In this document: positions 15,043 to 30,867 of the stretch, piece after piece | Layout: every line of letters starts with the position of its first letter | Numbering within the stretch: position 1 is the first letter of the stretch | NCBI GenBank assembly: GCA_025351455.1 | Contig: JANXVW010000151.1 | Span: forward strand, 1 to 32,691 | Reading direction: 5' to 3' | From: Betaproteobacteria bacterium | Lineage (GTDB): Bacteria > Pseudomonadota > Gammaproteobacteria > Burkholderiales > JACQAP01 | Length of the DNA: 32,691 nt | Translations under genes and position numbers: made by a program | The notes under the pieces: generated by a model | Databases searched by the model: none | Seen by the model: the letters and a program-made list of their open reading frames with translations, nothing else | Told to the model about the DNA's origin: nothing

Positions 15043-15119
15043 GGGCCCGTAGCTCAGTTGGTTAGAGCAGAGGACTCATAATCCTTTGGTCGAAGGTTCA
15101 AGTCCTTCCGGGCCCACCA
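15043..15119 (+). tRNA. tRNA with CAT anticodon, probably tRNA-Ile2 (lysidine-modified)
   Basis: The gene folds as a full cloverleaf: acceptor arm GGGCCCG/CGGGCCC, D-arm GCTC/GAGC, anticodon arm GAGGA-CTCATAA-TCCTT with CAT at 15077-15079, T-arm GAAGG-TTCAAGT-CCTTC, discriminator A and encoded CCA at 15117-15119. CAT can mean elongator Met, initiator Met or Ile2. The C4-G69 and C5-G68 pairs are TilS recognition features, and E. coli has ileX (tRNA-Ile2) near rpoD, so Ile2 decoding AUA is favoured. This identity is inferred. The opposite strand is used by the end of the pabB-pabC frame. Confidence 0.9.
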
Positions 15120-16869
15120 TCTTTGCCTGATCGTCGTATTCGACGAACACGGCATCGCGCCACTTGCGCACGGAATTGACCACCCAGAGACGCGTGGCGC
15201 GACGCAGGTCGCCAGCGTCGATACGCCGTTCCGTGATTTCTCCGCGCCCTAGCAGCCAGGCGCGAAACACACCCGGGAGGAGCCCGCACGCCAACGGCGG
15301 CGTCACCTTTTCGCCGTCAATTTCCACGACGATGTTGGCGATCGTTGTCTCGGTAATCTCACCGCGCGCATTCCACAGCACCACGTCGTCGCAATCTGGC
15401 CGGGATGCTTTGGCACGATCGTATAGAGCGCGATGCGTTGTCTTGTTGTAGAGAAACGGATCGGACGGATCGACGGGCTCGGCAGCGAGGGTGAGTCTCA
15501 CCGGGCTGGCCGATGCGTTCAGCGTCATCGCTTCGCTGTGCATGCGGCCGTTGCGATCCACGACCAACCTTACCCGGTGTGGTTGCAGCGGCAATCCGTC
15601 GGCGAATTCCTCCAGGTGACGTCGGATGCGTGAGTCGTCCGAGCGAATGCCGAAATACGCCGCCGATTCCGCGAGACGGCGCAAATGTTCCTCGACGAGG
15701 AAAAAGCCCTCCGCTGGTTCCCACAGCAGGGTCTCGAGCAGCGAAAACGCCGGTGGCGATCCGGTGACGATGCGCGCCTTGAGCAGGCACTCATCGTATT
15801 CGGTCTGGCTGCGCGAGTCCCAGACGATGCCGCTGCCGACGCCATATTCCACCGTGCCGCGATTGCGGCTCACTACCGCGGTGCGGATGGCGACGTTGAA
15901 CTGCGCGCGGCGTCCCGGGGCAATATAGCCGATGCAACCGGTGTAGATGCCGCGCGGCGAACTCTCGAGCTTCGCGATGATTTCGGCGGTGCGCACTTTG
16001 GGTGCGCCGGTAATGGATGCAGGCGGAAACAGCGCTTCCAGGATGTCGCAGACTGAAGCATCGGTGTCGGCCGCCACGGTCGAAGTCATCTGCCACAGGG
16101 TCGGATAGCGCTCCAGTTCGAACAGTCGCGGTACCTGGACGCTGCCGGCGCGGGAAACCCGGCTCAGATCATTTCGGACCATGTCGACGATCATCACGTT
16201 TTCCGCGCGATCCTTCTTCGAGGCTGCAAGGGCTTGCGCCATTTCGATGTCTTGGGATTGCATCAATCCGCGGCCGGCCGTCCCTTTCATCGGCCGGCTG
16301 GTGATCCGTTCTCCGTCAAGCCGGAAGAACAACTCCGGTGAGGCCGAGCAAACCACGAAGCTGTCGCAATCCAGATAGGCGCCATACCTCGGTTCGTTTG
16401 CCCGGATCATGCGCAGGAATAGTGCTTCGGGGTCTTCGAGCGCGGGCGCATGCAGGCGCAAGGTGTAGTTGACTTGATAGGTGTCGCCGGTGGCAATGAG
16501 TGCGCGGATCGCATCGATTGCCTGGTCATGCTGCTCCCGGCTGACCGTTGCCTGCCATTGATAGGCTTGCGCCCGTTCGGCTGCAGATTGCGTCGGATAC
16601 GCGATGTGCCGCGGCTGCGGGTACAGCCCCATCCAGAACAGGGGCCAGGCGCCCGGTGCGCGGACCTGGATAGCCGGGTCGAAGGCCGGGCCCGCCTCGT
16701 AGCTGATGAAGCCCGCCGCCCACCATCCCTCGCTGTTTACGCGTTCCTCTATCCGCCTGAGCGCCGGCAAGACCGCGTCGATGCGGTCGATGATGATGAT
16801 TTCGCTGGCATCCTGGAATTGCCACCAGCCGCCTTCATCGCCATCCTGAACCAGGCCCCAGTTCAACAT
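15076..16869 (-). CDS. pabB: Fused aminodeoxychorismate synthase component I / aminodeoxychorismate lyase (PabB-PabC)
   Basis: The 597-residue protein combines two steps of p-aminobenzoate synthesis for folate. Residues 110-370 form the chorismate-using domain, with GDTYQVNYTLRLH near 128, the PabB-type SRPMKGTAGRG (Lys195), VDMVRNDLSRV near 228 and PPASITGAPKVRTAEII near 282. Residues 375-575 form a class IV aminotransferase-like domain with the PLP lysine Lys476 in YNKTTHR, and ETTIANIVVE near 507. The family-like end is VNSVRKWRDAVFV near 576. The frame then runs into the tRNA on the opposite strand; the last 14 residues (584-597) and the stop are antisense to tRNA sequence. ATG 16869 has a GGATG-like site before it. 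The amidotransferase partner PabA is not in the window. Confidence 0.92.
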   Translation of the reverse strand: MLNWGLVQDGDEGGWWQFQDASEIIIIDRIDAVLPALRRIEERVNSEGWWAAGFISYEAGPAFDPAIQVRAPGAWPLFWMGLYPQPRHIAYPTQSAAERAQAYQWQATVSREQHDQAIDAIRALIATGDTYQVNYTLRLHAPALEDPEALFLRMIRANEPRYGAYLDCDSFVVCSASPELFFRLDGERITSRPMKGTAGRGLMQSQDIEMAQALAASKKDRAENVMIVDMVRNDLSRVSRAGSVQVPRLFELERYPTLWQMTSTVAADTDASVCDILEALFPPASITGAPKVRTAEIIAKLESSPRGIYTGCIGYIAPGRRAQFNVAIRTAVVSRNRGTVEYGVGSGIVWDSRSQTEYDECLLKARIVTGSPPAFSLLETLLWEPAEGFFLVEEHLRRLAESAAYFGIRSDDSRIRRHLEEFADGLPLQPHRVRLVVDRNGRMHSEAMTLNASASPVRLTLAAEPVDPSDPFLYNKTTHRALYDRAKASRPDCDDVVLWNARGEITETTIANIVVEIDGEKVTPPLACGLLPGVFRAWLLGRGEITERRIDAGDLRRATRLWVVNSVRKWRDAVFVEYDDQAKMVGPEGLEPSTKGL

Positions 16870-16922: not shown

Positions 16923-17210
16923 ATGCAGATTGTGGATCTTCAGACCGAAATCTCGCATCTTCGCAGGACCAACGCGGAATTGAACTCGCAAATTCAGAAG
17001 CAGCGCCAGGCGTTGTGCGCCGGCTTCGATGCGGGATTCGTGGCAGGTCAGGATGCCTGCTTTTGGGAATGCAACAGCCTGCCGATGCAGGGCACAGGTT
17101 TACCGCTCAGTAGTCGTCTTTTTCCTCGACATCGCGAGTTTCGTCCTCTTCTTCTTCGTAGAAGTCTTCCTCTTCTTCCTGCCAGTCTCCCGAATCGATT
17201 ACCTCGTTGA
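16923..17210 (+). CDS. Possible small coiled-coil protein, unknown
   Basis: This 95-codon frame sits in the gap between two leftward genes. Its first 57 residues look protein-like: IVDLQTEISHLRRTNAELNS has heptad-spaced hydrophobic residues, followed by a Cys/Gly/Ala stretch. The last third only reflects the opposite strand of the acidic gene at 17107-17433 and has no independent character. No clear ribosome site is visible. It may be a remnant, an extended overlapping gene or chance. Nothing else was recognised in 16870-17106. Confidence 0.28.
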   Translation: MQIVDLQTEISHLRRTNAELNSQIQKQRQALCAGFDAGFVAGQDACFWECNSLPMQGTGLPLSSRLFPRHREFRPLLLRRSLPLLPASLPNRLPR

Positions 17211-17433
17211 CGATGTCGGAAATTCGTCCGCGCACATCCAGTTCGGCCTGGCCGGTGATGCCCCCGATTTCCACATAGACTTCTTCGTCATCGTCGATGC
17301 TGATCGTGGCGTCCGGCCATTCTTCCTGGAATGCCTGCAGCAACTGGCCCTTGAACTTTTCGTATTCTTCTTCGGAGACGACGCCGAGCAGGTCGTGGTT
17401 TGCGAAATAGGCAATCGAAAGAGTGGAGGTCAT
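17107..17433 (-). CDS. Small acidic hypothetical protein
   Basis: I do not recognise this 108-residue protein. It starts MTSTLSIAYFANHDLLGVVSEEEYEKFKGQ and has a compact region with alternating beta-like and acidic stretches. It ends in a strikingly acidic tail (about residues 85-108, mostly Glu/Asp with some Tyr). There is no signal peptide or membrane segment, so it should be cytosolic. An in-frame ATG five codons upstream (17448) is possible; 17433 is chosen as the simpler start. It stands alone, leftward, between pabB-pabC and the sulfatase-like gene. The acidic tail suggests a binding partner with a basic surface, which is speculation. The 105 bases between this gene and the sulfatase-like gene show nothing clear. 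Confidence 0.6.
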   Translation of the reverse strand: MTSTLSIAYFANHDLLGVVSEEEYEKFKGQLLQAFQEEWPDATISIDDDEEVYVEIGGITGQAELDVRGRISDIVNEVIDSGDWQEEEEDFYEEEEDETRDVEEKDDY

Positions 17434-17553
17434 GGCGTTGTGCATCAATCGGTAAGGTGGCTAAAGGATACCCAAAGCGGAATTTATTTTCCGTATTTCC
17501 AGGCGTGTCATAAACCAATATGACAGTCGCTCCCGGATCACGCCTGGCCGGTG

Positions 17554-18984
17554 TCAGGGCCGGACCGGATTGTCGCCCCAATAGACCGGTGTCGCGTATT
17601 TTCGCGGCTTGTGCAGGTCGTCGAGGTAAAGGGAGGGCGCCATTTCCCAGGCCAGTTCATTGAACCGGACAAGCATTTCCTGGACACGCTGCGGCTCGCG
17701 TCCGGCGTGGTTGTCCTCTTCCGACGGATCGTCCTGCACGTTGTAGAGCTCATAGCGCACCGGCAGGCGCGAATAGGCGATGAGTTTCCAGTTCTCGATC
17801 ATCAGCGCGCCGCGGAAATCCTCCATTCCCAGCAACATTTCCTTGCGCCGGCTGAGTTTCGCTCCCGTGATCGTCGGCCACTGATCGACCCCGTCCACGG
17901 GCTTGGCTTGTTCCAGGCTGGCGCCGGCGAGGCCGAGCAGGGTAGGGTACATGTCGGTCACGTGAATGCGCTCCGACACTACGCCAGCAGGTATTTTTCC
18001 CGGCCATGACGCAAACGCCACCACGCGCAGACCGCCTTCGTACAGGCTTCCCTTGCCCTCGCGATAGGGGCCATTGTCGGAGCATGCCTTTTGCACGTCG
18101 CCGTCGCCGGTCGGAAACCTGGTCGGCAGCGCGCCGCCGTTGTCGCTGTGGAAAACAATCAGCGTCTCTTCCGCCATGCCCCTCTTGCCGATTGCGGCGA
18201 TGACCATGCCGACCGCGTCATCCAGGGCAGTGACCATGGCCGCATAAGTCCGGCGCTGTTCGTCGCGGACGTCCTTGTACACGTCGAGATATTCCTTCGT
18301 CGCCCGCAGCGGCGCCTGCGGCGCGTTAAATGAAAGTAAGAGGAATAACGGCCGCGCGTTGTCGTGCTTCTCGATGATCCGCGCGGCTTCCTTGCCGATC
18401 AGCGTGGTGCAGTAGCCTTCTTCCCTGAGCGGGCGCTCGTCGCGATGCCAGTCCGGCTCATTCGCCTGATTGATCTTGCGCAGGCAATCGACATCGCCGT
18501 TGAAACTGCCGTAAAAACTGTCAAAGCCCCGCCGCGTCGGCAGGTATTCTCTCCTGTAATGGCCGAGCTGCCATTTGCCCAGCATTACGGTGCGATAGCC
18601 CGCTTCCTTCAATGCTTCCGGCAGCAGGCGCTCGCCGATCGGCAGGCCGTACTGGCTCCACGGAAGGATGGACAGGGTCTGTAAGCCGTAGCGCATCGGA
18701 TAACGCCCGGTCAGCAAGGCAGCGCGCGCGGATGTGGAATACGGCTCGGAATAGAACTTTTCCAGGCGCGCACCATGTTGTGCGAGTCCGTCGAGATTGG
18801 GCGTCCGGATCTTGCTCCCGTGGAATCCGACGTCTTTCCAGCCCAGGTCGTCGGCAAGGATGTAGACGATGTTCGGCTGGTCCGCGGCACCGGCAGCGCC
18901 TGTCTTGCAAATCAGGGCCAGGGTGGTGCCGAGGGTTAAGGTGCCGCTAAGCAACGCCACTGCGAGTCGCGGGACGACCCTCAT
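17554..18984 (-). CDS. Exported arylsulfatase-B-like protein with altered active site
   Basis: The 476-residue protein has a signal peptide (residues 1-34, likely cut after GAAGA) and an alkaline-phosphatase-superfamily sulfatase fold closest, from memory, to arylsulfatase B. Conserved features are ILADDLGWKDVG (metal Asp45, Asp46), LLTGRYPMRYGLQ, LPTRRGFDSFYG, HSDNGG (Asp281, Asn282) and GKGSLYEGG (Lys311). The formylglycine motif CxPxR is replaced by Ser83-Thr-Ser-Ala-Arg87. The catalytic His of KWHLG is Gln139, and the substrate-side His aligns with Gln223. Metal ligands are kept but the nucleophile Cys, the motif Pro and two His are lost, so normal sulfatase activity is doubtful. No sulfatase-maturing enzyme is nearby. 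It is divergent from the MoxR/VWA cluster with 88 bases between. Confidence 0.85.
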   Translation of the reverse strand: MRVVPRLAVALLSGTLTLGTTLALICKTGAAGAADQPNIVYILADDLGWKDVGFHGSKIRTPNLDGLAQHGARLEKFYSEPYSTSARAALLTGRYPMRYGLQTLSILPWSQYGLPIGERLLPEALKEAGYRTVMLGKWQLGHYRREYLPTRRGFDSFYGSFNGDVDCLRKINQANEPDWHRDERPLREEGYCTTLIGKEAARIIEKHDNARPLFLLLSFNAPQAPLRATKEYLDVYKDVRDEQRRTYAAMVTALDDAVGMVIAAIGKRGMAEETLIVFHSDNGGALPTRFPTGDGDVQKACSDNGPYREGKGSLYEGGLRVVAFASWPGKIPAGVVSERIHVTDMYPTLLGLAGASLEQAKPVDGVDQWPTITGAKLSRRKEMLLGMEDFRGALMIENWKLIAYSRLPVRYELYNVQDDPSEEDNHAGREPQRVQEMLVRFNELAWEMAPSLYLDDLHKPRKYATPVYWGDNPVRP

Positions 18985-19027
18985 ACAATTCCTCCGTCGG
19001 TTGCGCGGATGTTACCCGAGAATGCGC

Positions 19028-19062
19028 CGCCGGCGCTTTGCCGGCGCGCGCTGCGTTACAAT
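19028..19062 (+). promoter_or_regulatory. Possible promoter/operator before the MoxR-VWA cluster
   Basis: A 7-base GC-rich inverted repeat (CGCCGGC at 19028-19034, GCCGGCG at 19040-19046) lies just upstream of a TACAAT -10 candidate at 19057-19062, eleven bases before the first start codon. The -35 is poor. It sits in the divergent gap with the sulfatase-like gene, so it could be a binding site for a regulator of either side. Confidence 0.3.
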
Positions 19063-19072
19063 CGAACGAGTC

Positions 19073-20635
19073 ATGAAAGAGCGTGAAATCATCAACGGCG
19101 TGCTGCGCGACTTGGGCCGCCGCCTGTGGATTGCCCGGGCGATCCGGGAAGCCGCATTTGTTACCTGCGTCGTTCTGTTCTGCCTCGTGTGCTATCAGTT
19201 GGTCGAACCCTCGGTCATATCCGCCATACCGTCGGCCCGAACCGCAATGCACGCCATATTGCTGGCTGCATTCGCCGCCGTTGCCGTTGAGGTTGCAAGG
19301 CGAAACGCGCGCAGGATTCCCTCCGGTCAAGCTGCCGCTCATGCCGATGCGCGCGCGCACCTCAAGGACGAACTGAAATCGGCGCACTGGTTTCTGTCGG
19401 AGGATCCGCTTTCGCCGTTCGCCGAACTTCAGGTCCGGCGCGCGGCGGTGACGGCCGCCGGACTCGATCTCGCCGCGGTTGCGCCGCGCACGCTGCCTTG
19501 CAACGCTTGGTTGGCCGCCGGCCTGGGACCCGCGCTCGCGGCGCTGATCTGGATGACGCCGCAGTTGTCGCGCCCGTGGGAGGCCGGCCGCGAAGGAGTT
19601 CCAGCGGAGCGCCGGGAGATTACCGACCTGCGCTCACTGCTCGCGGACGCGCCACCGGACGCAGAAATCGGGAAGCTCGACCGGGCCCTGAGCAAACTGC
19701 AGAAAACCGGCGCCACCCTTGAAGAGAAAATGCGCGCCCTCGCCGAGGCCCGCGATGCGATCGACCAGGCGAACATGGACGCATCCGCGGCACGCGAAGA
19801 AATGGCGAAACTCGCCGGATCGCTGAAGGTCGATGCGAAATTCGAATCGGTCGTGCAGGCGATGAACGAAGGCCGCATGGATGAGGCGGTGGCGCTTTTG
19901 CACAAGCTCAAGGCCGACGCCGCTTCCGTCACGCCGCAAGACCAGGCCAGCGAGCCGGTTAGCAAGGATGGCAATCAGGAAAATGACGGCAACCCGGCCG
20001 TGGAAAGTACCGGTCGGAACCTGGCCGGCAAGAACGCCGCCATCAACCAGGATGCGCTCAATCGGGTGATCAAGACCCTGGAGCAGGCAAGCGAGCGCAT
20101 CGAGGTGCAGAACCGGGTCAACAATGTCAAACGGCACATGGACAATCTCGTCGCCACGAACCAGCGCAGTCAGCTCACCGCAAGCCAGTTCGATAATCGC
20201 ACCAATCCCCCGAACTCCACGCCGGCGCCGGCGACCGGCAATGCCGATGTTCGCGGCGGTACGTTGTTCAGGCAGGCGGCGGTTGCGCGCGAGGAGGCGG
20301 ACACCGCACGCGAAGGCAGTCAGACCGGCGATGCTTCTGGCGATTCGGTGGCGCTGCCATTGGAAGGTGCGGCGACACGTCGGCTCGATGCGCAATTGAA
20401 GCTCGAAACCATTGCACAAAAATACGACGCGGGCGATCAGGCTCAGGGCAAGGGAGACGCTGGCTGGTTCTATTCCGCCAGCCGCGAGCAGAAATCGATT
20501 CTGCACGCCGAGGACGTGCGCGCTCTCGCCGGCTATGACCGTGAAGCTGCGGCGGATCATGACCGCGTGCCGGTACGGCAAAAAACCATCGTCAAGAATT
20601 ATTTCCTGAACCTGCACGAAAGCGAGAAAAAATGA
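19073..20635 (+). CDS. Membrane-anchored coiled-coil protein, first gene of MoxR/VWA cluster (DUF4175-like N-terminus)
   Basis: The 520-residue protein has hydrophobic helices at about residues 27-43, 57-74 and 145-161. Long charged helical stretches likely to form coiled coils follow (185-330), then a low-complexity Gln/Asn/Pro-rich linker around residues 285-420 and a helical end. The HLKDELKSAHWFLSEDPLSPFAELQVRRA stretch between helices 2 and 3 recalls the N-terminal part of DUF4175-type proteins, a loose resemblance from memory. The enzymatic role is unknown; a scaffold or inner-membrane partner of the MoxR ATPase is inferred from position only. ATG 19073 is preferred over the open frame back to 18869, which overlaps the divergent gene's signal peptide. 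Its stop overlaps the moxR ATG by four bases. Confidence 0.78.
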   Translation: MKEREIINGVLRDLGRRLWIARAIREAAFVTCVVLFCLVCYQLVEPSVISAIPSARTAMHAILLAAFAAVAVEVARRNARRIPSGQAAAHADARAHLKDELKSAHWFLSEDPLSPFAELQVRRAAVTAAGLDLAAVAPRTLPCNAWLAAGLGPALAALIWMTPQLSRPWEAGREGVPAERREITDLRSLLADAPPDAEIGKLDRALSKLQKTGATLEEKMRALAEARDAIDQANMDASAAREEMAKLAGSLKVDAKFESVVQAMNEGRMDEAVALLHKLKADAASVTPQDQASEPVSKDGNQENDGNPAVESTGRNLAGKNAAINQDALNRVIKTLEQASERIEVQNRVNNVKRHMDNLVATNQRSQLTASQFDNRTNPPNSTPAPATGNADVRGGTLFRQAAVAREEADTAREGSQTGDASGDSVALPLEGAATRRLDAQLKLETIAQKYDAGDQAQGKGDAGWFYSASREQKSILHAEDVRALAGYDREAAADHDRVPVRQKTIVKNYFLNLHESEKK

Positions 20636-21630
20636 GCACCGTGGTCATCGACCGGGAAATCCAGGACTTCCGTGAACAATTCCTGCTGGTGCGCGACGAA
20701 ATTGCGCGCGTGATCGTCGGTAACGAGGAAATCATTGCCGGCGTCATGACCTGTCTGCTGGCGCGGGGCCACGTGCTGCTCGAAGGCATTCCCGGCGTGG
20801 GCAAGACCAAGCTGGTACAGACCATGGCCGATGTCCTGCATCTGAAATTCTCGCGCATTCAGTTCACGCCCGACCTGATGCCCGGCGACATCATCGGCAC
20901 CACCATCGTCCGCGAGGATGATTCCGGGCGCAAATCGTTCGAGTTCCAGCGCGGGCCGATATTCGCCAACATGGTGTTGGCCGACGAAATCAACCGCGCC
21001 ACGCCGAAAACGCAATCGGCACTGCTGGAAGCAATGCAGGAAAACAGCGTGTCCGCTGCGGGTCGCACGCATGTGCTGGACCAGCCGTTCTTCGTCCTTG
21101 CCACGCAGAACCCGATCGAAATGGAAGGTACGTATCCATTGCCCGAGGCGCAGATGGACCGATTCTTTTTCAAGCTCAAGCTCGATTTCCCCGACGTCCA
21201 ACAGTTACACCTGATCATCGACCGCACCACTCGCCAGGCGGAGCCTTCCGTGAAACGGGTGCTGGAGCATGGCCAGATCCTGCAGATGCGCGAAACCGCG
21301 CGCGCGATCCCGGTTGCGCGTCCGGTGCAGGAATATGCGATCAAGGTGACCCTGGCCACGCATCCGGAGTCGGACCAGGCGCACGAGTTGACGAAAAAAT
21401 ACGTGCGCTTCGGCTCCAGTCCGCGCGGCACCCAGGCGCTGATCCTCGGCGCAAAGGTGCATGCGTTGATGAACGAACGGGTTTATGTGTCGGGAGAAGA
21501 CATCCGTGCAGTGGCCTTGCCGGCGTTGCGTCATCGCGTGTTGCTTAACTTCGAAGCGGAGGCACAGCGCATGGATGCCGATGCGATCCTTGCGCGCATC
21601 CTGGAATGGGTGCCGCATCCCGGCGAATAA
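20632..21630 (+). CDS. MoxR-family AAA+ ATPase
   Basis: The 332-residue cytosolic ATPase has Walker A GIPGVGKTK (Lys60), Walker B MVLADEINR (about residues 114-122), the MoxR stretch PGDIIGTT before it, sensor 1 in VLATQNPIEMEGTYPLPEAQMDRF and the sensor 2 region SSPRGTQAL. MoxR proteins act as chaperone-like ATPases that insert metals or assemble partners, often with VWA proteins encoded beside them. The ATG overlaps the previous stop (ATGA), and the DUF58 gene follows after 35 bases. This supports a single operon of five genes. Confidence 0.95.
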   Translation: MSTVVIDREIQDFREQFLLVRDEIARVIVGNEEIIAGVMTCLLARGHVLLEGIPGVGKTKLVQTMADVLHLKFSRIQFTPDLMPGDIIGTTIVREDDSGRKSFEFQRGPIFANMVLADEINRATPKTQSALLEAMQENSVSAAGRTHVLDQPFFVLATQNPIEMEGTYPLPEAQMDRFFFKLKLDFPDVQQLHLIIDRTTRQAEPSVKRVLEHGQILQMRETARAIPVARPVQEYAIKVTLATHPESDQAHELTKKYVRFGSSPRGTQALILGAKVHALMNERVYVSGEDIRAVALPALRHRVLLNFEAEAQRMDADAILARILEWVPHPGE

Positions 21631-21665
21631 CGAATCCAGGCTGCGCGGCCGCATCGAGGACCTCC

Positions 21666-22553
21666 ATGGCTCAGGACAACGTGCTGTTTAGCGAAGAGTT
21701 CCTTCGCCAGATCGAGCATCTGACCATGCTCACGCGAGGCCCTGTCGCCGGCCATCTGCGCGGGCATCATCGTTCACGCCGTACCGGGTCGGGCATGATC
21801 TTTACGGATTACCGGCCTTACTCCCCGGGCGACGACACGCGCAACCTCGACTGGGGAACCTATCTCAGGCTCGATCGCCTGATCCTGCGGCTGTTCGAGG
21901 AAGAGGCCGACCTGCCCATTTATATATTTGTCGACGTCAGCCGCTCGATGGAATTCGGCACCCCGTCGAAATTCGATTTTGCGCGCAGGTTTGCGGCGGC
22001 GATCGCCTATATCGGCCTGATCAATCACGATCGCGTGAGCCTGGTCGCGTTTTCTGACGGTGTGGTCGAGGAAATGCCGGCGCGCCGCGGCAAGAGCCAG
22101 GTCTGGAGATCCCTGCATTTTCTCGAACGCCTGCGCGCCGCCGGCGGCACCAGCCTGCAAACTGCCTTTCGCGGTTTTTTCGGCGCGCGTCGTACGCGTG
22201 GCCTGGTCGTGCTGATTTCCGATTTCCTGGACCGCGAGGGTTTTGAGCGCAGCTTCCAGGTCATTCGCGAATACCGTCACGACGTTTTCGCCATTCACGT
22301 GAGCAGCCCGGAAGAAGTGGAACCGGCGCTGGCCGACGAAGTGCTCCTGGTGGATTCCGAACTGGGACATGCCACGCGCACACGGGTAACGCCCGACCTC
22401 ATCAAGGCCTATCGCGAGACCTTCCTGAACTATTGCGCGGAAATCGAGGGCTTCTGCCGCAGCCACGGCTGGGGCTACCTGCGCGCTTCGACGCAGAGCC
22501 CACTTGAGAAATTGGTGCTCAAGGCGTTGCGCGACGAAGGCCTGTTGCGATGA
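21666..22553 (+). CDS. DUF58 domain protein
   Basis: The 295-residue protein has the DUF58 core: FTDYRPYSPGDDTRNLDW near residue 40 (the usual R.Y.pGDd.R.idW motif) and a VWA-like fold with FVDVSRSMEFG (DxSxS metal site) near residue 80. SLVAFSD, GGTSLQTAF and VVLISDFLDREGF follow. DUF58 proteins accompany MoxR ATPases and VWA proteins and are thought to be adaptors. GAGGA at 21656-21660 is a strong ribosome site, so ATG 21666 is chosen over the in-frame 21606 inside moxR. The stop overlaps the next ATG by four bases. Confidence 0.93.
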   Translation: MAQDNVLFSEEFLRQIEHLTMLTRGPVAGHLRGHHRSRRTGSGMIFTDYRPYSPGDDTRNLDWGTYLRLDRLILRLFEEEADLPIYIFVDVSRSMEFGTPSKFDFARRFAAAIAYIGLINHDRVSLVAFSDGVVEEMPARRGKSQVWRSLHFLERLRAAGGTSLQTAFRGFFGARRTRGLVVLISDFLDREGFERSFQVIREYRHDVFAIHVSSPEEVEPALADEVLLVDSELGHATRTRVTPDLIKAYRETFLNYCAEIEGFCRSHGWGYLRASTQSPLEKLVLKALRDEGLLR

Positions 22554-24340
22554 GCGTGCAGGCACTGCCGCCTTACCTGGCACTTGCCCTGATTGCTGTC
22601 GCGGCCATCGTCGCACTGCTGTACTGGCTCAAGCCGCCGCCGCGCACGATCGTCGTTGCCTCCAGCCTGGTCTGGGATCGCGTGTTGCGCGAGAGCCATC
22701 CGAGTCCGGACCGGCTGCGCTGGTGGCTGTCCCTCTTGCTGGCTACCTTGATTGCCGCCATGATTGTCAGCGCGGTGCTCCCGCCAAGTGCGGCAACGCC
22801 GGGTGCAGCCGGATCGACACTCATCATCGTGCTCGACAATTCGCCGACCATGGCGACGCGAACCACCGATGGCGCTACGCGCTGGGATCATGCGGTGGCC
22901 AGGGCGCGGGCCTTGATGGAATCGCGTGCGGTCGGAACCCAGGTCTGGCTGGCGGATTCCATGCGGCGTGTCGCCACGCCGGCCTTTCGGAACCGCGACG
23001 ACGCGCTGGCGCAACTGGCGAGTTTGCAAGTCTCGTATGGATTGGCGCCGGCGCTGCCGTTCCCCGAACAATTCGCGGCCATCGAAGCGATTGTGATCAC
23101 CGATGGCGTGTCGCTCGGCCCGGTTCCTGCGCATGTGAGACTGGAGTCCGTTTTCGAGTCGGTGGAAAACGCCGGCATCACCGCCTTCGAAGTGCGCGCG
23201 CTGCCAGCCGATCCGCGCCGCTACCTGGCCTATGTCGAATTGTTCAACGCCAGCGGTGTCGAAAAGCGCATCGAACTGACGGTCGTCGGCGTCGGAGGCA
23301 AGCGCATCAGCCGGGTAGTGTCCGTCGCACCCAACAGTCCGCGCAACGAGATGGTCGACATTTCGGACTTCGGCGGCGGACCGGTGCGGGCATCGATCGC
23401 GATGCCCGGCGACGGCTTCGCAATAGACGACGTTGCTTACTCCATCTTGCCGGCGCACCGTGTAATGCGCGTGGCGCTGGTGACGGACGGCAATGCCTTC
23501 CTGGAAAAATCCCTGCAGGTCCAGCCGCGCGTGAACATGACGGTCATTGCGCCCGCGCGTTACGCCGACGACCGGAACTACGACGCGATCGTGTTCGACC
23601 GCTTTGCGCCCAAGGCCCGTCCCCATGTCCCCGCGTTGCTATTCCGCCCGTCGCGCGCGGAATGGTTGCCGCCGCGGCATAAGGAGATCGCCAACGTATC
23701 CGCCACATCCTGGAATACGGTGCATCCCCTTCTGGAGAATATTTCGCTGCTCGACCTGAGCGTCGATCGTGCGGCTGTCGCCGACTTGCGGGGACGCACA
23801 CAAGATGCTGAGGCCGTGCTGGCGAGCCGCCCGGGCGGCGAGCCGTTGATCGTGGCCCATGAGGGCGGGGTACGCTGGGTTTCGTTTGCCTTTGCATTGG
23901 ACGATTCGAATTTCGCGCTGCACGCCGGCTTTCCGATATTTCTGAACAACGCACTTAACTGGATGTGGGGCGAGCAGGCGCACATCAAGCGCGGACTGGG
24001 CGTCGTCGAAGTTCCGGTGTCCGACGCGCGCGTGATGACGGCCGATGGAACGGAATTGCCTACGCACTCCACCGGTGGCGGCAGTCTCTTCGAAGTTGAT
24101 GTCCCCGGCCTGTTCACGGTCGTGTCGGCTCACCAACGCCTGCGGCTTGCGGTGAATTTGTTGGATCGCCGCATTTCAGACGTGAACAATTCCCGGCTGG
24201 CGCAGGTCAAGCCCGACCCAGAGGCGCTGATTGCCGCGAAGCGGTCGTTTGCGTTTGACCCATGGTTCGCGCTGTTGCTTGCTGCTGCGCTGTTGCTGTT
24301 GTTCGAGTGGTGGAGCTGGAACCGGCGGATGACGGTATGA
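22550..24340 (+). CDS. BatA-like VWA membrane protein
   Basis: The 596-residue protein has N-terminal helices at about 8-26 and 58-78 (the BatA-type aerotolerance-regulator N-terminal arrangement). A VWA-like domain follows with an imperfect metal site Asp96-Asn-Ser98-Pro-Thr100 (DxSxT), then TDGVSLGP near residue 180. Mixed beta-rich regions precede a C-terminal helix (about 572-590) with a short basic cytoplasmic end. The topology suggests the large domain faces the periplasm and is held at both ends, as in BatA. The start overlaps the DUF58 stop (ATGA), and its own stop overlaps the next ATG in the same way. Exact partner or substrate is unknown. Confidence 0.85.
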   Translation: MSVQALPPYLALALIAVAAIVALLYWLKPPPRTIVVASSLVWDRVLRESHPSPDRLRWWLSLLLATLIAAMIVSAVLPPSAATPGAAGSTLIIVLDNSPTMATRTTDGATRWDHAVARARALMESRAVGTQVWLADSMRRVATPAFRNRDDALAQLASLQVSYGLAPALPFPEQFAAIEAIVITDGVSLGPVPAHVRLESVFESVENAGITAFEVRALPADPRRYLAYVELFNASGVEKRIELTVVGVGGKRISRVVSVAPNSPRNEMVDISDFGGGPVRASIAMPGDGFAIDDVAYSILPAHRVMRVALVTDGNAFLEKSLQVQPRVNMTVIAPARYADDRNYDAIVFDRFAPKARPHVPALLFRPSRAEWLPPRHKEIANVSATSWNTVHPLLENISLLDLSVDRAAVADLRGRTQDAEAVLASRPGGEPLIVAHEGGVRWVSFAFALDDSNFALHAGFPIFLNNALNWMWGEQAHIKRGLGVVEVPVSDARVMTADGTELPTHSTGGGSLFEVDVPGLFTVVSAHQRLRLAVNLLDRRISDVNNSRLAQVKPDPEALIAAKRSFAFDPWFALLLAAALLLLFEWWSWNRRMTV

Positions 24341-26946
24341 CACTACCGTTGACCATTCAATCCGCCTGGCCGGCAGTATGGCTCGCAGTGGTGCCGCTGC
24401 TGTTCTGGCTGGCCCGCGCAAGCCATACCCGGCTTGGCAGACTGCACCTGCTGGTCGCAACCATGTTGCGCAGCCTCGCCATCGTTGCGCTCGCGCTGGC
24501 GTTGATGCGGCCACAATGGAATGCGAGTTCAGGCGACGTATCGGTCGTCTATGCGGTGGACGTCTCGCGCAGCGTGTCGTCCGCCTTCATCGATGCGGCA
24601 ATCAGATGGATCGAACAGGCCAATCGGGAGGGCGCACCGGCGCAGGCGCGCTATCTGGCATTCGCTGATCACGCGGTGATGCTGAGCAGGCCTGCGGACA
24701 TACGCAGCGTCGCCGTGACGGAAAATTCCGTGCGGGGTGCCGCAGGAAACCCCGACGTCATCGACCAGGCAGCGACCAACATCGAACAGGCGCTGGATGC
24801 CGCCCTGATGGGCCTGGATCGCGATCGCGCCAAGCGCATCGTATTGCTGACCGATGGCAACCAGACCGCCGGCGACGTCTGGCGTATATTGCCGCGCCTG
24901 ACGCAAGCCCATGTGCGCGTATATCCGATTCCGGCGAAAGTCCGCGAGGACAACGATGCCTGGGTTGCGGGCATCAACGTGCCCGCAGATATTCATTCCG
25001 GCGAACCGGTAACCGTGACTGTGCGCGTGATTTCCGGCATCGATACCATCGCACGAGTGTCGCTCGAGGAGGCGAAGGGGGTGCTGGGCAGGCGAAACGT
25101 GCAACTGAAAGCCGGCCTGAACCGGGTGGCGTTTGAAGTGAGGTTGGGACGAGCCGGATCGGTCACGCTGTCGGCCGAAGTCGTTGCCAAAGGCGATACG
25201 GTTGCCGATAACAATCGCATGCAGCAGTCGATGTGGGTCAAGGGGCGGCCACGCGTCCTCTACGTGGAGGGCGGACAAGCTGAAGCCGCGCGTTATCTGG
25301 CCGACGCGCTGACCGGCCAAGGCATCGACGTGCGCGTCATCTCGCCCGCCGCGCTGCCGGCTTCCGCCGCGGGGCTTGCAGCCTATGATGCGGTGATTTT
25401 GAGCGACGCGCCGGCGAAAGCACTCTCGCCCGAAGGGATGCAGGCAATCGAATCCTATGTTCGCGATCTGGGCGGCGGCCTGCTGTTTGCAAGCGGCGAG
25501 AATGTGCATGGCGAGCAGGGTTACAGCGATACCGCGGTGGAACAAGTGCTGCCAGTGCAACTCCGCGCACAGGAAAAGCGCAAGGATCTCGCGCTGGTAA
25601 TTGTGCTGGATCGCTCGTATTCGATGAAGGGCCGCAAAATGGAGATGGCGAAGGAAGCCACCCGTGCCACGCTCGACCTGCTCGAGGAGCAGCATCGATT
25701 CGCGGTAGTGGCCTTCGATTCACAGACTTATGTCGCGGTGCCGATGCAGTACGTGCGCTCGCGGCGCAAGGCGGAAGACCAGATCAGCCGCATCCAGGCA
25801 AGCGGGCAAACCAATATCTATCCGGCGCTCGGCATTGTCTACCGGCTGCTGCAGAGAACCGATTCGAAGGCGAAACACGTGATCCTGCTCTCCGACGGCG
25901 ATACGCATCCTGCAGATTTCGAAACCCTGGTCAAACGCATGGCCGGCGAAAAGATCGTGGTGTCCACCGTTGCGGTCGGCGCGGACGCGGACCGGACCCT
26001 GATGAGCGACATCGCCAAATGGGGCAAGGGCAGGGCGTACGTCGCCGAGAGTGCCGAATCGATTCCGCAGATCTTCATCGAGGAGACCGAACGCGCGGTG
26101 CGATCCAATCTGCTCGAAGAATCGTTCAAGCCCGCGGTCAAGCACCGCAGCACTGCATTCCGTGGCGTGGACGTCGAGAAACTGCCCGAACTCAGGGGCT
26201 ATGTCAGCAGCAAGGCGCGCGATCACGCGGAAGTCTTGCTTGCCACGCCGTCGGGCGCGCCCCTGCTGGTGCGCTGGCAATACGGCCTCGGCAAGAGCGT
26301 CGCATTTACATCGGACGTGAAGAATCGCTGGGCGTCCAACTGGATCGAGTGGCCCGGCTACGGAAAGTTCTGGGCGCAGCAGGTGCGCGACCTCATGCGC
26401 CGCGATACCGGGGAAGAGCTGGATTTCCGTGTCGCGCGCGAGGGCAGCGAGGCGGTCGTCAGCCTGTCAGTGCTGACGCCGGACGGGAACTATCGCAACG
26501 GCCTGGCGCCGCAGGTGCGGATAAGCCGGCCCGACGGAATCAAGTTGACCATCAGTCTTGTGCAGACCGGGGCCGGCGTTTATCAGGTGCGCATGCCCGT
26601 CGACAGATCGACGCAGACCGAGAGGTTTGAACTTGTCGAGTCGCCGGGGATACCGAAGCAAGTGGCGCTTCGCGCGGGTACGCGTACCTTGCATCAGGAT
26701 TATCCGGACGAATATCGCGGATTCTCGCCCGATGTCGAATTGCTCGACGCGCTTGCCCGCGCAACGGGGGGGAAAGTCGCGCCGTCCTTCGCCGAAGTGT
26801 TCGCGCAGCAAGGCGACGAGAGCAGGGCCACCAAATTCCTGTGGCCATGGATTGCGGCGCTGGCATTGATTTTCTATTTGCTCGACATCGCCGTGAGGCG
26901 CTCGCCACTGGCCTGGCGCTGGCTCGAGGGCCAGCCGGAAAACTAA
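24337..26946 (+). CDS. Large membrane protein with two VWA domains and a glutamine-amidotransferase-like region
   Basis: The 869-residue protein begins with two helices (about 10-25 and 43-57). VWA domain 1 has MIDAS Asp75-Val-Ser77-Arg-Ser79 and LLTDGNQTAGD near residue 170. A beta-rich Ig-like stretch follows, then a class I GATase-like region at about 305-395 (VLYVEGGQAEAARYL, then YDAVILSDAPA and GGGLLFASGEN) that lacks an obvious Cys nucleophile. VWA domain 2 has MIDAS Asp425-Arg-Ser427-Tyr-Ser429 and ILLSDGDTHPAD. A C-terminal helix near 833-853 anchors the end. ATG 24337 overlaps the previous stop; the longer frame to 24262 lies inside the BatA-like gene. The stop shares four bases with the convergent HATPase gene. 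It is probably the periplasmic business end of the MoxR cluster. Confidence 0.88.
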   Translation: MTLPLTIQSAWPAVWLAVVPLLFWLARASHTRLGRLHLLVATMLRSLAIVALALALMRPQWNASSGDVSVVYAVDVSRSVSSAFIDAAIRWIEQANREGAPAQARYLAFADHAVMLSRPADIRSVAVTENSVRGAAGNPDVIDQAATNIEQALDAALMGLDRDRAKRIVLLTDGNQTAGDVWRILPRLTQAHVRVYPIPAKVREDNDAWVAGINVPADIHSGEPVTVTVRVISGIDTIARVSLEEAKGVLGRRNVQLKAGLNRVAFEVRLGRAGSVTLSAEVVAKGDTVADNNRMQQSMWVKGRPRVLYVEGGQAEAARYLADALTGQGIDVRVISPAALPASAAGLAAYDAVILSDAPAKALSPEGMQAIESYVRDLGGGLLFASGENVHGEQGYSDTAVEQVLPVQLRAQEKRKDLALVIVLDRSYSMKGRKMEMAKEATRATLDLLEEQHRFAVVAFDSQTYVAVPMQYVRSRRKAEDQISRIQASGQTNIYPALGIVYRLLQRTDSKAKHVILLSDGDTHPADFETLVKRMAGEKIVVSTVAVGADADRTLMSDIAKWGKGRAYVAESAESIPQIFIEETERAVRSNLLEESFKPAVKHRSTAFRGVDVEKLPELRGYVSSKARDHAEVLLATPSGAPLLVRWQYGLGKSVAFTSDVKNRWASNWIEWPGYGKFWAQQVRDLMRRDTGEELDFRVAREGSEAVVSLSVLTPDGNYRNGLAPQVRISRPDGIKLTISLVQTGAGVYQVRMPVDRSTQTERFELVESPGIPKQVALRAGTRTLHQDYPDEYRGFSPDVELLDALARATGGKVAPSFAEVFAQQGDESRATKFLWPWIAALALIFYLLDIAVRRSPLAWRWLEGQPEN

Positions 26947-27389
26947 CTGCGGGTGGCAACGAGCCGGAGGCAGATGCGGTTGCGGCCTTCGACGTAGCAG
27001 TAGTCGGCCTGTTCTGTCAGTCCGATGGTAATGAAGATGCCGAGGCCGCCCACGCGGCGTTCTTTTATGGTCGATTCAATATCCGTGCGCTTTCCCGCAG
27101 CGAGCGGGTCGAATGGCGGTGCCGAATCTTCGTAGATCAGCTGGACGCTGCCCTTGTCTTCTTCGAAAGTAATGGAAACCGGAGCGTCGCTGTCTCCTCG
27201 GTGGCCGTGATTGACCGTATTGGTGAACAATTCTTCGACAATTAACGTCAGTTTGTGGCGATCCTCGCGGCCGAGTTCGGCCACCTCACCGAATTCGTCA
27301 ATCAGTGCTTTGACCTGCTCAAAGGCTAACAGCCGCGCGGGGAAGACGCGATTCAGGCGGTGCATGCTTTTCTCAATTTGCACAGGCAT
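26943..27389 (-). CDS. RsbW/SpoIIAB-like ATP-binding protein (anti-sigma or STAS-directed serine kinase)
   Basis: The 148-residue protein is a stand-alone GHKL HATPase domain. The N-box EELFTNTVNHG places Glu53 and Asn57 in the nucleotide/magnesium site, EDSAPPFDP forms the G1-type region at about 87-95, and RRVGGLGIFI is the G2 glycine lid. This architecture fits RsbW/SpoIIAB kinases that phosphorylate STAS antagonists and hold a target, often a sigma factor, when the antagonist is phosphorylated. AGGAAG lies seven bases before the ATG at 27389, deciding the start. It is divergent from the FecR gene and overlaps the end of the VWA gene by four bases. The matching STAS and phosphatase genes lie 3-5 kb downstream. 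Confidence 0.88.
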   Translation of the reverse strand: MPVQIEKSMHRLNRVFPARLLAFEQVKALIDEFGEVAELGREDRHKLTLIVEELFTNTVNHGHRGDSDAPVSITFEEDKGSVQLIYEDSAPPFDPLAAGKRTDIESTIKERRVGGLGIFITIGLTEQADYCYVEGRNRICLRLVATRS

Positions 27390-27509
27390 TTGCCACTTCC
27401 TGCAAAGGGCAGGCCCGCTGTTAAGATGGTTACGTGCATGGTTCTTGCACCAATTATCCGGGACCGGCGATGTTTGCCGACACTACGATTCAGAACCGGA
27501 GAGGGCAAA

Positions 27510-27986
27510 ATGACCAAAGTATCGACATTCCAAAGAGATATCCTTGTTTTTGGCGTACTTTTACTGGCTACCGCGTGGACGTGCACGCACGCGTTTGCCG
27601 GCGATGCCGGACGCATCAAGGTATCCAAGGGTGACGTGCAGATCGAGCGCAACGGCAAATTGATGCCCGCGCCGGTCGGCGCCGTCATTGAAGTCGAGGA
27701 TACGGTAAAAACCGGCGCGGACGGCTCGGTAGGCATCACCTTCCAGGACAACAGCCTGTTATCCGCGGGACCTAACAGCGAGCTTGTGATTGAGCGCTTT
27801 GTCTTCGACACTACGACCCACCAAGGCGAGTTCGACACGCGCCTGAAAAAGGGAACCCTGGCAGTCGTCTCCGGCAAGATTGTCAAGCAATCCCCGGAAG
27901 CCATGCGCATCAAGACACCCGCTGCGATCATGGGCGTACGCGGTACTGAATTCATCGTCAAAGTGGACGAACCCACCGCCAATTGA
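27510..27986 (+). CDS. FecR-domain exported protein
   Basis: The 158-residue protein has an N-terminal hydrophobic helix (residues 11-28, ending THAFAG), a probable signal peptide, then a FecR-type beta-helical domain. The domain shows GRIKVSKGDVQIERNG, VKTGADGSVGITFQDNSLLSAGPNSEL, KGTLAVVSGKI and a closing TPAAIMGVRGTEFIVKVDE, the family's conserved end. The group is the stand-alone, exported FecR type and not the anti-sigma FecR of iron uptake; its ligand is unknown. GGAGAGGG is a strong ribosome site four bases before ATG 27510. Its stop overlaps the next gene's ATG (TGATG), so it is coupled to the OmpA-like lipoprotein. Confidence 0.88.
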   Translation: MTKVSTFQRDILVFGVLLLATAWTCTHAFAGDAGRIKVSKGDVQIERNGKLMPAPVGAVIEVEDTVKTGADGSVGITFQDNSLLSAGPNSELVIERFVFDTTTHQGEFDTRLKKGTLAVVSGKIVKQSPEAMRIKTPAAIMGVRGTEFIVKVDEPTAN

Positions 27987-28669
27987 TGAAGCGTGTTGTC
28001 CTCGTGTTGGCCACCGTCGCGGCGATGGTGGCCGGTTGCGCGCAGTTTGCATCCCAGCCGAGCGCGGCTCGCTGGAGCAAATCCCAGCAGCCGATCGAAC
28101 CCGAGGCCTTGCGTCCGTCGGACCGGTCGCCGCGCAACGACCTGATCGTCCTGCTGCCAAAGCCGAACGGCAAGATCGGTGGCGTCGTCGTCAGGAACGA
28201 TGGCGGCAAGGAAATCGTTCTGGACAAGGCCTATGCTGGCGCGCATATCGACGGTCCCGGCGAGATGCAATCGATCACGTACGGAGCCGATCGCGTCGCG
28301 CGCGAGTTTTCTTCCGTCGTGGCGGCACTGCCTGGACGCCCCGCCACTTTCTTGCTGTATTTTCTCGAAGGAAAGGACGAACTCACGCCGGATTCCGAAC
28401 GCGAGGTCGAACGCGTATTTGCCGAAATCGCGGCCAGGCCGTACCCGGAAATTCTCGTCATCGGCCACACCGACGCCGTCGGCAACGCCGAGTTCAACGA
28501 CCACCTCTCGCGGCAACGAGCACAGCGTGTGCGAGCCGATCTGGTCAAGCGCGGGATCGCGGTCGATCACATCGAGGTGTCCAGCCGCGGCAAGCGCGAG
28601 CCGCTGGTGCCGACTTCCGAAGGCGTTTCCGAGCCCAAGAACAGGCGCGTAGAAATCAACGTGCGCTGA
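27986..28669 (+). CDS. OmpA-family outer-membrane lipoprotein
   Basis: The 227-residue protein has a lipoprotein signal ending MVAGC (Cys18 as lipid anchor) and a C-terminal OmpA/Pal-like peptidoglycan-binding domain. The domain shows FLEGKDELTPDSE, ILVIGHTDAVGNAEFN, LSRQRAQRVRADLVKRGI and SEPKNRRVEI. The middle (residues 50-100) is unassigned, with a KIGGVVVRNDGGKEIVLD beta stretch. It probably links outer membrane and cell wall. The ATG at 27986 overlaps the FecR stop; a TTG one codon earlier is also in frame. FecR-OmpA pairs next to CHASE2 genes recur in proteobacteria (general recollection, not checked), which hints at a shared envelope-sensing role. Confidence 0.88.
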   Translation: MKRVVLVLATVAAMVAGCAQFASQPSAARWSKSQQPIEPEALRPSDRSPRNDLIVLLPKPNGKIGGVVVRNDGGKEIVLDKAYAGAHIDGPGEMQSITYGADRVAREFSSVVAALPGRPATFLLYFLEGKDELTPDSEREVERVFAEIAARPYPEILVIGHTDAVGNAEFNDHLSRQRAQRVRADLVKRGIAVDHIEVSSRGKREPLVPTSEGVSEPKNRRVEINVR

Positions 28670-28710
28670 GCCTCGAGCGCGATGGATGAGCCGGGCTTGC
28701 ATTCCGCTCT

Positions 28711-30867
28711 TCACGTTTCACCGCCATTCCAGCGCAAGGCCAGGATCGTAAGATCGTCCGAGCGCTCCATATCCTTTACGAAAGCGCGGACGTCGTCGCG
28801 CACTGCGTTGACGATTTGAATCGCGTCTGTTGCGCCGAACGATGACTTCAATACGGTAAACAAACGCTGCTTTCCATAAAATTCGTTGCTGGCGTTCATC
28901 GCCTCCGTCACGCCGTCTGTAAACAGACAAAGTGCCTCGCCGGGCAGCAGGCGGTAATGCTCCTGCAAGTAGGCATATCCCTCGATCACGCACAGCGGTG
29001 GCCCGGCGTCGCCTTCAACTTTGACCGGAGTAGTCTGGCCAGGACGCAGGCACAAAGGCGGGTCGTGTCCGGCGTTGCACCAGGTCAGTTCGCCGGTCTT
29101 CAGATCCAGTATGCCGGCGAATACCGTCACGAACAGCATTTCGGGATTGTCGCGGGCGATCTCCGCGTTGGCGGCGCGCATGACTTCGCCGATGCCGGCG
29201 CCGTGCTCCATGCGCAGGGCCGTACTTTTGTACAACGCCTTGCTCACCGCCATGAAAATGCTCGCCGGCAGGCCTTTGCCCGCCACGTCGCCGACCATGA
29301 AGAACAAACGATCGCCGTCAAGCTTGAAGAAATCATAGAGATCGCCGCCGACCAATTTCGCGGGTTCGATCAGGGCTTGCAGGCTGAAACGTGCATCAGC
29401 ATAGAACTTGGCTGAAGGCGGAGGTAACATGCCCATCTGGATGCGTTGGGCCGCTTCCAGTTCGCCGGCCGCGCGTGCGGCGGACTCGCGCTCCGCCTGC
29501 AATGCCTGGCGCAATGTACGGCGTTGCCGGTCCGCTTCGGCGAGCGTGCCGGTTAGCATGACGCCAAACAATATCGTGCTGACCGCCACTGGCCAGGCAA
29601 CGTCGACGAGCATGCGCTGCCAGTAATACAGCGCAAATCCGCCGGTCAGCAGGCCGGCGATGAGCACGGCGTAGATCAATGCCGCGATGCGCGGCTTCAC
29701 GGCGGGAACGGCGAGAATAAGGATCAGTCCCGAAATCAGCAGGAGCACGCGCTCCATGTTTGCGAGATAACCCGGGCGCTGCAGCAGGCTGTCATCGAAA
29801 ATGTTCTCCAAAATTTGCGCATGGATTTCGATGCCGGGGATGCGCTGGCCGGTGGGAACGGTCTGATAGTCGAGCAAACCCAGGCCGGTCGCGCCGATGA
29901 GCGCAATCTTGCCCCGTATCTGTTCGGGGTCAACGCGTCCGTGCAGTACGTCGGTCGCCGAAACAAATCGATCTTCGTCGTGCAGGCCGAAATGCACCCA
30001 CACGGACCCGTCCGCGTTGGTCGGAATGAAGACGTCGCCGATGCCGATGCCCGTCACGCGATCCGGTTCGCCGACCGCGACGAAAGCCGGGACCTGGGTG
30101 GCGATTCGCAAGACCTCAATGGACAGGGCAGGGGTCAGCACGTCATTGACGGATGCCAGCAGCGGAACCCGGCGCACAACGCCTCCACTTGGATCGACGC
30201 TCAGCAGCCCGTGGCCGCGGGCGGCAGCGTCCAGTTGTTCCAGGCTGCGCAGCGTTCCGGCGAAATGCCGCAAATGCGGGGTAGGGTCGCTCCCGCGAAC
30301 TCGAAACGGCGCGGTGCGGCTGTTGGCGACAGCCGACCCTTTTTGCTCAACCCCGGCGATGCCGAGCGCTACGGGATGCCGGCGCAGCGTATCCGCCAGC
30401 ACGGAGTCGTTGCTCGGCAACTTCGCCAGGCGCTGGGCGAGTTTCAAATCCAGCCTTTCGATCAGGCCGGCGATGCTGGCCGGCGACATGCGGTCGGATT
30501 CCGGCATCAGCACGTCCACGCCGATCGACGCGGGTTCGTTCTTCGCGATCGCTTCGATCAGATCTGCGACGGTTGTGCGGGGCCACGGCCATTGGCCGAG
30601 TTCCTGCAGGCTTTTTTCATCGATGGCAACGATGACCGCGGGAGCCGAGGCGCGCTTGCGCGGCGCAACTTTCTGGTATCCGTCGAACAAAGCCATGCGC
30701 AGCTCGCTTAGGGCCGGCAGCGTCGGGAACAGCGAAAGCGCGAGCAGGACGACAAGCAGTGCCACGCCCAGCGGCCGGCCTTGGCCGCCGGTCAGTACCG
30801 AACGCAAATTGCGCGCAGTGCCCTTTTCTGCGGTGTTCACCCCGGGATTTTGGCCGGCTTCGGTCAA
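28711..30867 (-). CDS. CHASE2 sensor with SpoIIE/PP2C-type serine phosphatase
   Basis: The 718-residue membrane protein has an N-terminal helix (33-50), a large extracytoplasmic CHASE2 domain (about 55-365, with VIVAIDEKSLQELGQWPWPR, ASIGVDVLMPE and IRGKIALIGATGLGLLDYQ) and three helices (373-390, 394-413, 421-440). A coiled-coil linker (445-477) leads to a SpoIIE/RsbU-like PP2C domain (485-715). Phosphatase metal motifs are KLVGGDLYDFF (Asp509, Asp512), MVGDVAGKGLPA (Asp527), LCLFTDGVTEA and SDDLTILAL. It should dephosphorylate a STAS protein, probably the one encoded at 31830-32201, in response to a periplasmic cue. The TTG start at 30867 shares TTGA with the MBL stop, suggesting translational coupling; GTG ten codons in is an alternative start. 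Confidence 0.92.
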   Translation of the reverse strand: MTEAGQNPGVNTAEKGTARNLRSVLTGGQGRPLGVALLVVLLALSLFPTLPALSELRMALFDGYQKVAPRKRASAPAVIVAIDEKSLQELGQWPWPRTTVADLIEAIAKNEPASIGVDVLMPESDRMSPASIAGLIERLDLKLAQRLAKLPSNDSVLADTLRRHPVALGIAGVEQKGSAVANSRTAPFRVRGSDPTPHLRHFAGTLRSLEQLDAAARGHGLLSVDPSGGVVRRVPLLASVNDVLTPALSIEVLRIATQVPAFVAVGEPDRVTGIGIGDVFIPTNADGSVWVHFGLHDEDRFVSATDVLHGRVDPEQIRGKIALIGATGLGLLDYQTVPTGQRIPGIEIHAQILENIFDDSLLQRPGYLANMERVLLLISGLILILAVPAVKPRIAALIYAVLIAGLLTGGFALYYWQRMLVDVAWPVAVSTILFGVMLTGTLAEADRQRRTLRQALQAERESAARAAGELEAAQRIQMGMLPPPSAKFYADARFSLQALIEPAKLVGGDLYDFFKLDGDRLFFMVGDVAGKGLPASIFMAVSKALYKSTALRMEHGAGIGEVMRAANAEIARDNPEMLFVTVFAGILDLKTGELTWCNAGHDPPLCLRPGQTTPVKVEGDAGPPLCVIEGYAYLQEHYRLLPGEALCLFTDGVTEAMNASNEFYGKQRLFTVLKSSFGATDAIQIVNAVRDDVRAFVKDMERSDDLTILALRWNGGET

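Follow-up and report, generated by a model that had tools for sequence, protein, structure and literature searches.

Within the 32,691 nucleotides of betaproteobacterial DNA analysed here (the window) lies a gene for an exported protein with a sulfatase fold and a degenerate active site. Comparison with its relatives gives good support to the view that this pseudosulfatase is a maintained pseudoenzyme, its known chemistry apparently lost without decay. Judging from its residues, it is very probably not a hydrolase. Taking all the evidence together, we favour, with moderate confidence, the reading that it is maintained in the periplasm most likely for a non-catalytic role, as partner or client of a MoxR/VWA machine in the inner membrane. 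The constant MoxR/VWA neighbourhood is the most informative feature of the locus, and the original prediction had missed it. That prediction placed the gene at 17554-18984, which is correct; the reading frame lies on the minus strand (18984..17554). The gene and its main features, with active-site positions taken from alignment, are as follows.

17554..18984, minus strand: pseudosulfatase coding sequence, 476 aa
18883..18984, minus strand: signal peptide, about residues 1-34, with a hydrophobic stretch at 7-25 (from sequence and hydropathy)
18847..18852, minus strand: D45-D46, metal ligands
18724..18738, minus strand: S83-T-S-A-R87, replacing C-x-P-x-R
18562..18576, minus strand: K137-W-Q139-L-G, replacing K-W-H-L-G
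18475..18477, minus strand: K170, a His in canonical sisters
18316..18318, minus strand: Q223, replacing the second catalytic His
18139..18144, minus strand: D281-N282, metal ligands
18052..18054, minus strand: K311, retained in the window protein
17557..17598, minus strand: clade-specific C-terminal tail, residues 463-476, P-x-x-W-x-x-N-P

The protein matches PF00884 (E 7.5e-59), the fold of the S1 formylglycine sulfatases. Its best match among solved structures by phmmer is human ARSB (1fsu, E 2.5e-78), followed by the iota-carrageenan sulfatases 6bia and 6b0j, and all three alignments are unambiguous across the active-site motifs. The predicted model (mean pLDDT 87.2, pTM 0.88) superposes on 1fsu with a Z of 53.2 and an rmsd of 2.1 over 418 residues, so that on the model the protein is a complete ARSB-type S1 sulfatase fold. 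The signal peptide that had been proposed is supported by sequence and hydropathy and by signal-like N-termini on the relatives; inspection of the N-terminus revealed no lipobox. The C-terminal tail is strongly conserved in the pseudosulfatase clade (P466 and W469 in 93%, N472 in 100%) and missing from canonical sisters; it has low pLDDT in the model of the window protein.

How unusual is the degenerate form? Relatives were gathered from related genomes and public genome contigs, giving degenerate forms and a large canonical set, mostly from metagenome assemblies. The degenerate sulfatases (n=41) come from five families of the same order and form one clade, supported by an SH-aLRT of 98 in a tree from which eleven active-site columns were left out. 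When a profile was run across 399 genomes of the order, 29 proved to carry the degenerate form, scoring 653-823 bits. Five matches elsewhere in the phylum scored no more than 605 bits and fell with canonical sequences in the tree or outside the clade. Among 71 canonical sisters, the catalytic positions are invariant except for one Q at position 85 and single gaps. In these sisters, 83 columns are near-invariant (at least 97% conserved), and just seven of the 83 fall below half retention in the degenerate proteins: C83, P85, K137, H139, H170, H223 and K311. All but H170 are known catalytic or motif positions. Mean retention in the degenerate proteins is 0.91 across 72 other near-invariant columns.

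The individual positions bear this out. As had been claimed from the sequence, alignment to ARSB places D45, D46, Arg87, K137, D281, N282 and K311 in the window protein, and the phmmer alignment to 1fsu places Ser-Thr-Ser-Ala-Arg, Gln139 and Gln223 at the catalytic positions. Hence the window protein has neither a [CS]-x-P-x-R formylglycine motif nor the two catalytic His, and it does have the D-D-D-N metal ligands. Across the clade, Ser83, Arg87 and D46 are invariant (41/41), position 45 varies (29 D, 11 N, 1 G), D281 is D in 39 and N282 is N in 36; the strict D-D-D-N set is present in 26 of the 41 and missing in 15. At position 139 the clade has Q, L or R (His in 1/41) and at position 223 any of A, G, Q, S and E (His in 0/41); position 170 is Lys in 30 of 41, where 69 of 71 canonical sisters have His. 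Substitutions at K137 and at K311 each affect over half of the clade, K311 being a Lys in only 16 of 41; both Lys are retained in only 10, the window protein among them. A search for homologues with Ser-x-Ser-x-Arg and both Gln had been suggested: the 41 relatives share Ser83 without His223, Gln139 and Gln223 are not constant, and Q, S and P all occur at position 85. Could a Cys or His be supplied from elsewhere in the protein, as the original prediction had allowed? None is apparent in the alignment of the 41 relatives. No relative has a Cys near position 83, and the sole clade-enriched His near the site, H279, is also found in 30% of canonical sisters, which leaves no apparent catalytic substitute for the lost His in the sequence.

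These patterns bear on whether the protein could still be an active hydrolase, with unmodified Ser83 as nucleophile and a bound metal acting on phosphate or other esters in the manner of alkaline phosphatases. The invariance of Ser83, D46 and R87 and the frequent retention of D281 and N282 are compatible with this, and the window protein itself, with its metal ligands, both Lys and Ser83, may have residual chemistry. However, both His are gone, one or both Lys are gone in most relatives, 12 of 41 have N or G in place of D45, D281 and N282 vary in some, and a two-metal site of the alkaline phosphatase type is missing. A Ser-nucleophile phosphohydrolase, one of the functions first suggested, is unlikely for the family because 15 of 41 members lack the strict D-D-D-N set and the catalytic positions other than the invariant Ser83 are free to vary; overall, we regard an active hydrolase as improbable.

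A conventional enzyme would also need to be matured. Ser at the formylglycine position could indicate an ordinary sulfatase of the Ser type, with anSME as its maturase, but we reject this as highly improbable: both catalytic His are missing, 35 of 41 clade members have Ser or Gln in place of Pro85, and the protein's own genome has no TIGR03942 (anSME) match. The motif Pro is only 87% conserved in SulfAtlas, with replacements mostly Ala (PMC5066984), so its loss alone is not decisive. The earlier statement that this is not simply an anSME-matured enzyme stands on the lost His and the lack of an anSME match. Nor was an FGE found; the sole PF03781 gene in the genome, rejected as a candidate, is EgtB, adjoining EgtD. 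Neither kind of maturase was thus detected in the genome, and this absence is strong rather than absolute, since the assembly, although 98.8% complete, is split into 353 contigs. It has three PF00884 genes: the pseudosulfatase and two with N-terminal membrane segments, which read from their sequences as EptA-like and LtaS-like. Separately, in family f19, an exported FGE-fold protein (PF03781) is encoded no more than a few kb from the pseudosulfatase (L128:11899-12771, minus strand), with counterparts in L167, L171, L174, L179, L180, L182 and L185-L187; it is not near the pseudosulfatase in the window's genus. Among solved structures it is closest to PvdO (5hha, E 2.3e-40) and the L128 copy, read by eye, has no Cys pair at the true-FGE position, so it is not read as a maturase.

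Is the gene simply decaying on its way to loss? The lost active site would fit. However, reading frames are intact in all pseudosulfatase loci examined. The window's genus gives a dN/dS of ~0.11-0.13, and nine of the ten pairs compared lie at 0.06-0.18, the tenth being a pair of low divergence at 0.35. Moreover, the gene is retained in genomes of 1.6-2.1 Mb, usually as their only PF00884 gene. The dN/dS of ~0.1 and the intact relatives lead us to reject decay, which we consider scarcely credible, in agreement with the earlier argument. The protein has lost its catalytic residues, kept its fold and remained under purifying selection. The 41 relatives with the same selective active-site loss, together with purifying selection, favour the pseudoenzyme that had been proposed from one sequence.

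The conserved neighbourhood suggests what a pseudoenzyme might be maintained for. In the window, the pseudosulfatase is divergent from a cluster in the order fam1, MoxR, DUF58, BatA-VWA, VWA-GATase.

18985..19072, no strand: divergent intergenic region of 88 bases, common to the pseudosulfatase and fam1
19073..20635, plus strand: fam1, helical membrane protein with N-terminal TM segments
20632..21630, plus strand: MoxR AAA+ ATPase (AAA_3; PF07726, E 2.3e-63)
21606..22553, plus strand: DUF58 protein with a VWA-like region (PF01882, E 9.9e-38)
22550..24340, plus strand: membrane protein with a BatA N-terminal domain and VWA
24334..26946, plus strand: VWA and GATase1_like membrane protein (mechanical ORF start 24262)

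No Pfam or NCBIfam family matches fam1 over cut-off, and its predicted model (pLDDT 58.7) is too poor for a structure search. Two of the 41 pseudosulfatase loci (L170 and L181) are cut at a contig edge; in all 39 testable loci, fam1 adjoins the pseudosulfatase, usually divergently, accompanied by the remaining cluster genes where the contig is long enough. In L119 and L178, the pseudosulfatase lies upstream of the cluster, co-directional with fam1. By comparison, MoxR/VWA cluster genes are near none of 80 canonical sulfatase loci, some of which have short flanks. Among the 399 genomes, fam1 occurs in 32, including all 29 with the pseudosulfatase; among 299 phylum-wide genomes, it occurs in the window's own genome only. 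The cluster also occurs in four loci (L213-L216) with no pseudosulfatase next to it, and hence does not require one. A nested branch of nine pseudosulfatases (SH-aLRT 92) is a further variation: in the eight loci where the contig extends far enough, fam1 and both VWA genes are present and MoxR and DUF58 are missing, which is, as read from sequence, a derived loss. Because most of the linkage reflects vertical inheritance from a single origin, the loci are not independent witnesses.

Other genes near these loci were also seen. An LldD-like FMN-dependent dehydrogenase gene (PF01070) follows the pseudosulfatase co-directionally in L116 (8130-9374, minus strand) and is also beside it in L114, L121, L166, L168-L174, L177, L183, L185 and L186. 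It is found in ~18 of 32 MoxR-type loci, only as fragments in L128, L176 and L187, and neither in the branch without MoxR nor in the window. Downstream of the pseudosulfatase, the window has a small, very acidic ORF of 113 aa (17107-17448, minus strand) with no NCBIfam match; conservation of the antisense frame in L117/L034 and L121 suggests that it is a real gene. A tRNA-Met (cat) gene at 15043-15119, plus strand, overlaps the 3' end of a chorismate-binding/aminotransferase ORF (15076-16869, minus strand), the last residues of which read across the tRNA gene. Beyond the cluster and outside the conserved neighbourhood, 27360-30867 holds a CHASE2 and SpoIIE-phosphatase protein and ORFs that are, by eye, FecR-like and OmpA-like.

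How might the pseudosulfatase act with the cluster? A role as partner or client, suggested by gene context, is somewhat favoured. The exported protein would fold in the periplasm and perform no hydrolysis, although a residual metal site would probably remain around D46, S83 and D281. It may bind a membrane-anchored protein (fam1, BatA-VWA or VWA-GATase), with the conserved C-terminal tail as a candidate contact, and MoxR and DUF58 could power or assemble the complex in most lineages, the partners persisting without them in the derived branch. Retention of the pseudosulfatase with the VWA proteins and fam1 where MoxR was lost points to these as the partner side. Alternatively, the dead site could be a receptor for sulfated or phosphorylated glycans of the envelope or environment, signalling via the VWA proteins. 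The retained fold, metal region and Arg87 and the linkage to membrane VWA proteins are consistent with such a receptor, but the lost positions include K137, H139, H223 and K311, at which known sulfatases contact the sulfate, and these differ widely between clade members. With both Lys in only 10 of 41, binding of sulfated glycans, as first suggested, is not supported for the family, and we consider a receptor of this kind unlikely. As to the partner or client role, we see an even chance that the locus represents a hitherto undescribed system of the envelope: a MoxR/VWA membrane machine that took on a dead sulfatase as its own dedicated subunit or client, without catalytic function, and that has fam1 as a membrane component.

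What are the implications? First, a clean clade with a constant neighbourhood is a concrete candidate for what a MoxR cluster of the BatA/DUF58 type acts with. Second, annotation by PF00884 alone would label such pseudosulfatases as sulfatases. A search of the open-access literature, with subscription papers mostly outside its scope, found no papers on pseudosulfatases (one match was unrelated) and none that brings MoxR, DUF58 and a sulfatase together. The fold and the MoxR/VWA genes were already known; what appears new, relative to the literature searched, is a conserved pseudosulfatase clade tied to a MoxR/VWA cluster.

Compared with known systems, the pseudosulfatase resembles human ARSB (1fsu) and the S1_19 carrageenan sulfatases (6b0j, 6psm) in fold, signal peptide and metal-ligand positions, and shares with S1 sulfatases the motif Arg and most near-invariant structural columns. 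Unlike them, it lacks the Cys and CxPxR motif, both catalytic His are replaced, and its clade has its own C-terminal tail and no conserved sulfate-contacting Lys. The canonical CTPTR sisters (L039-L109; Bradyrhizobium, Rhodopila, cyanobacteria and others) are ~47-58% identical, with the same length and domain, but they keep all catalytic residues and the MoxR/VWA cluster is not nearby. MoxR ATPases and VWA proteins together remodel protein clients, and some insert metals (PMC13036017). In Leptospira biflexa, loss of the bat genes by deletion left growth, morphology and the oxidative-stress phenotype unchanged (PMC3557215). The NorQD, RavA-ViaA and Bat aerotolerance clusters also combine a MoxR AAA+ ATPase with VWA proteins, and Bat-type clusters have DUF58 and BatA genes as well; to these known arrangements, the window cluster adds fam1, the VWA-GATase1_like protein and the pseudosulfatase.
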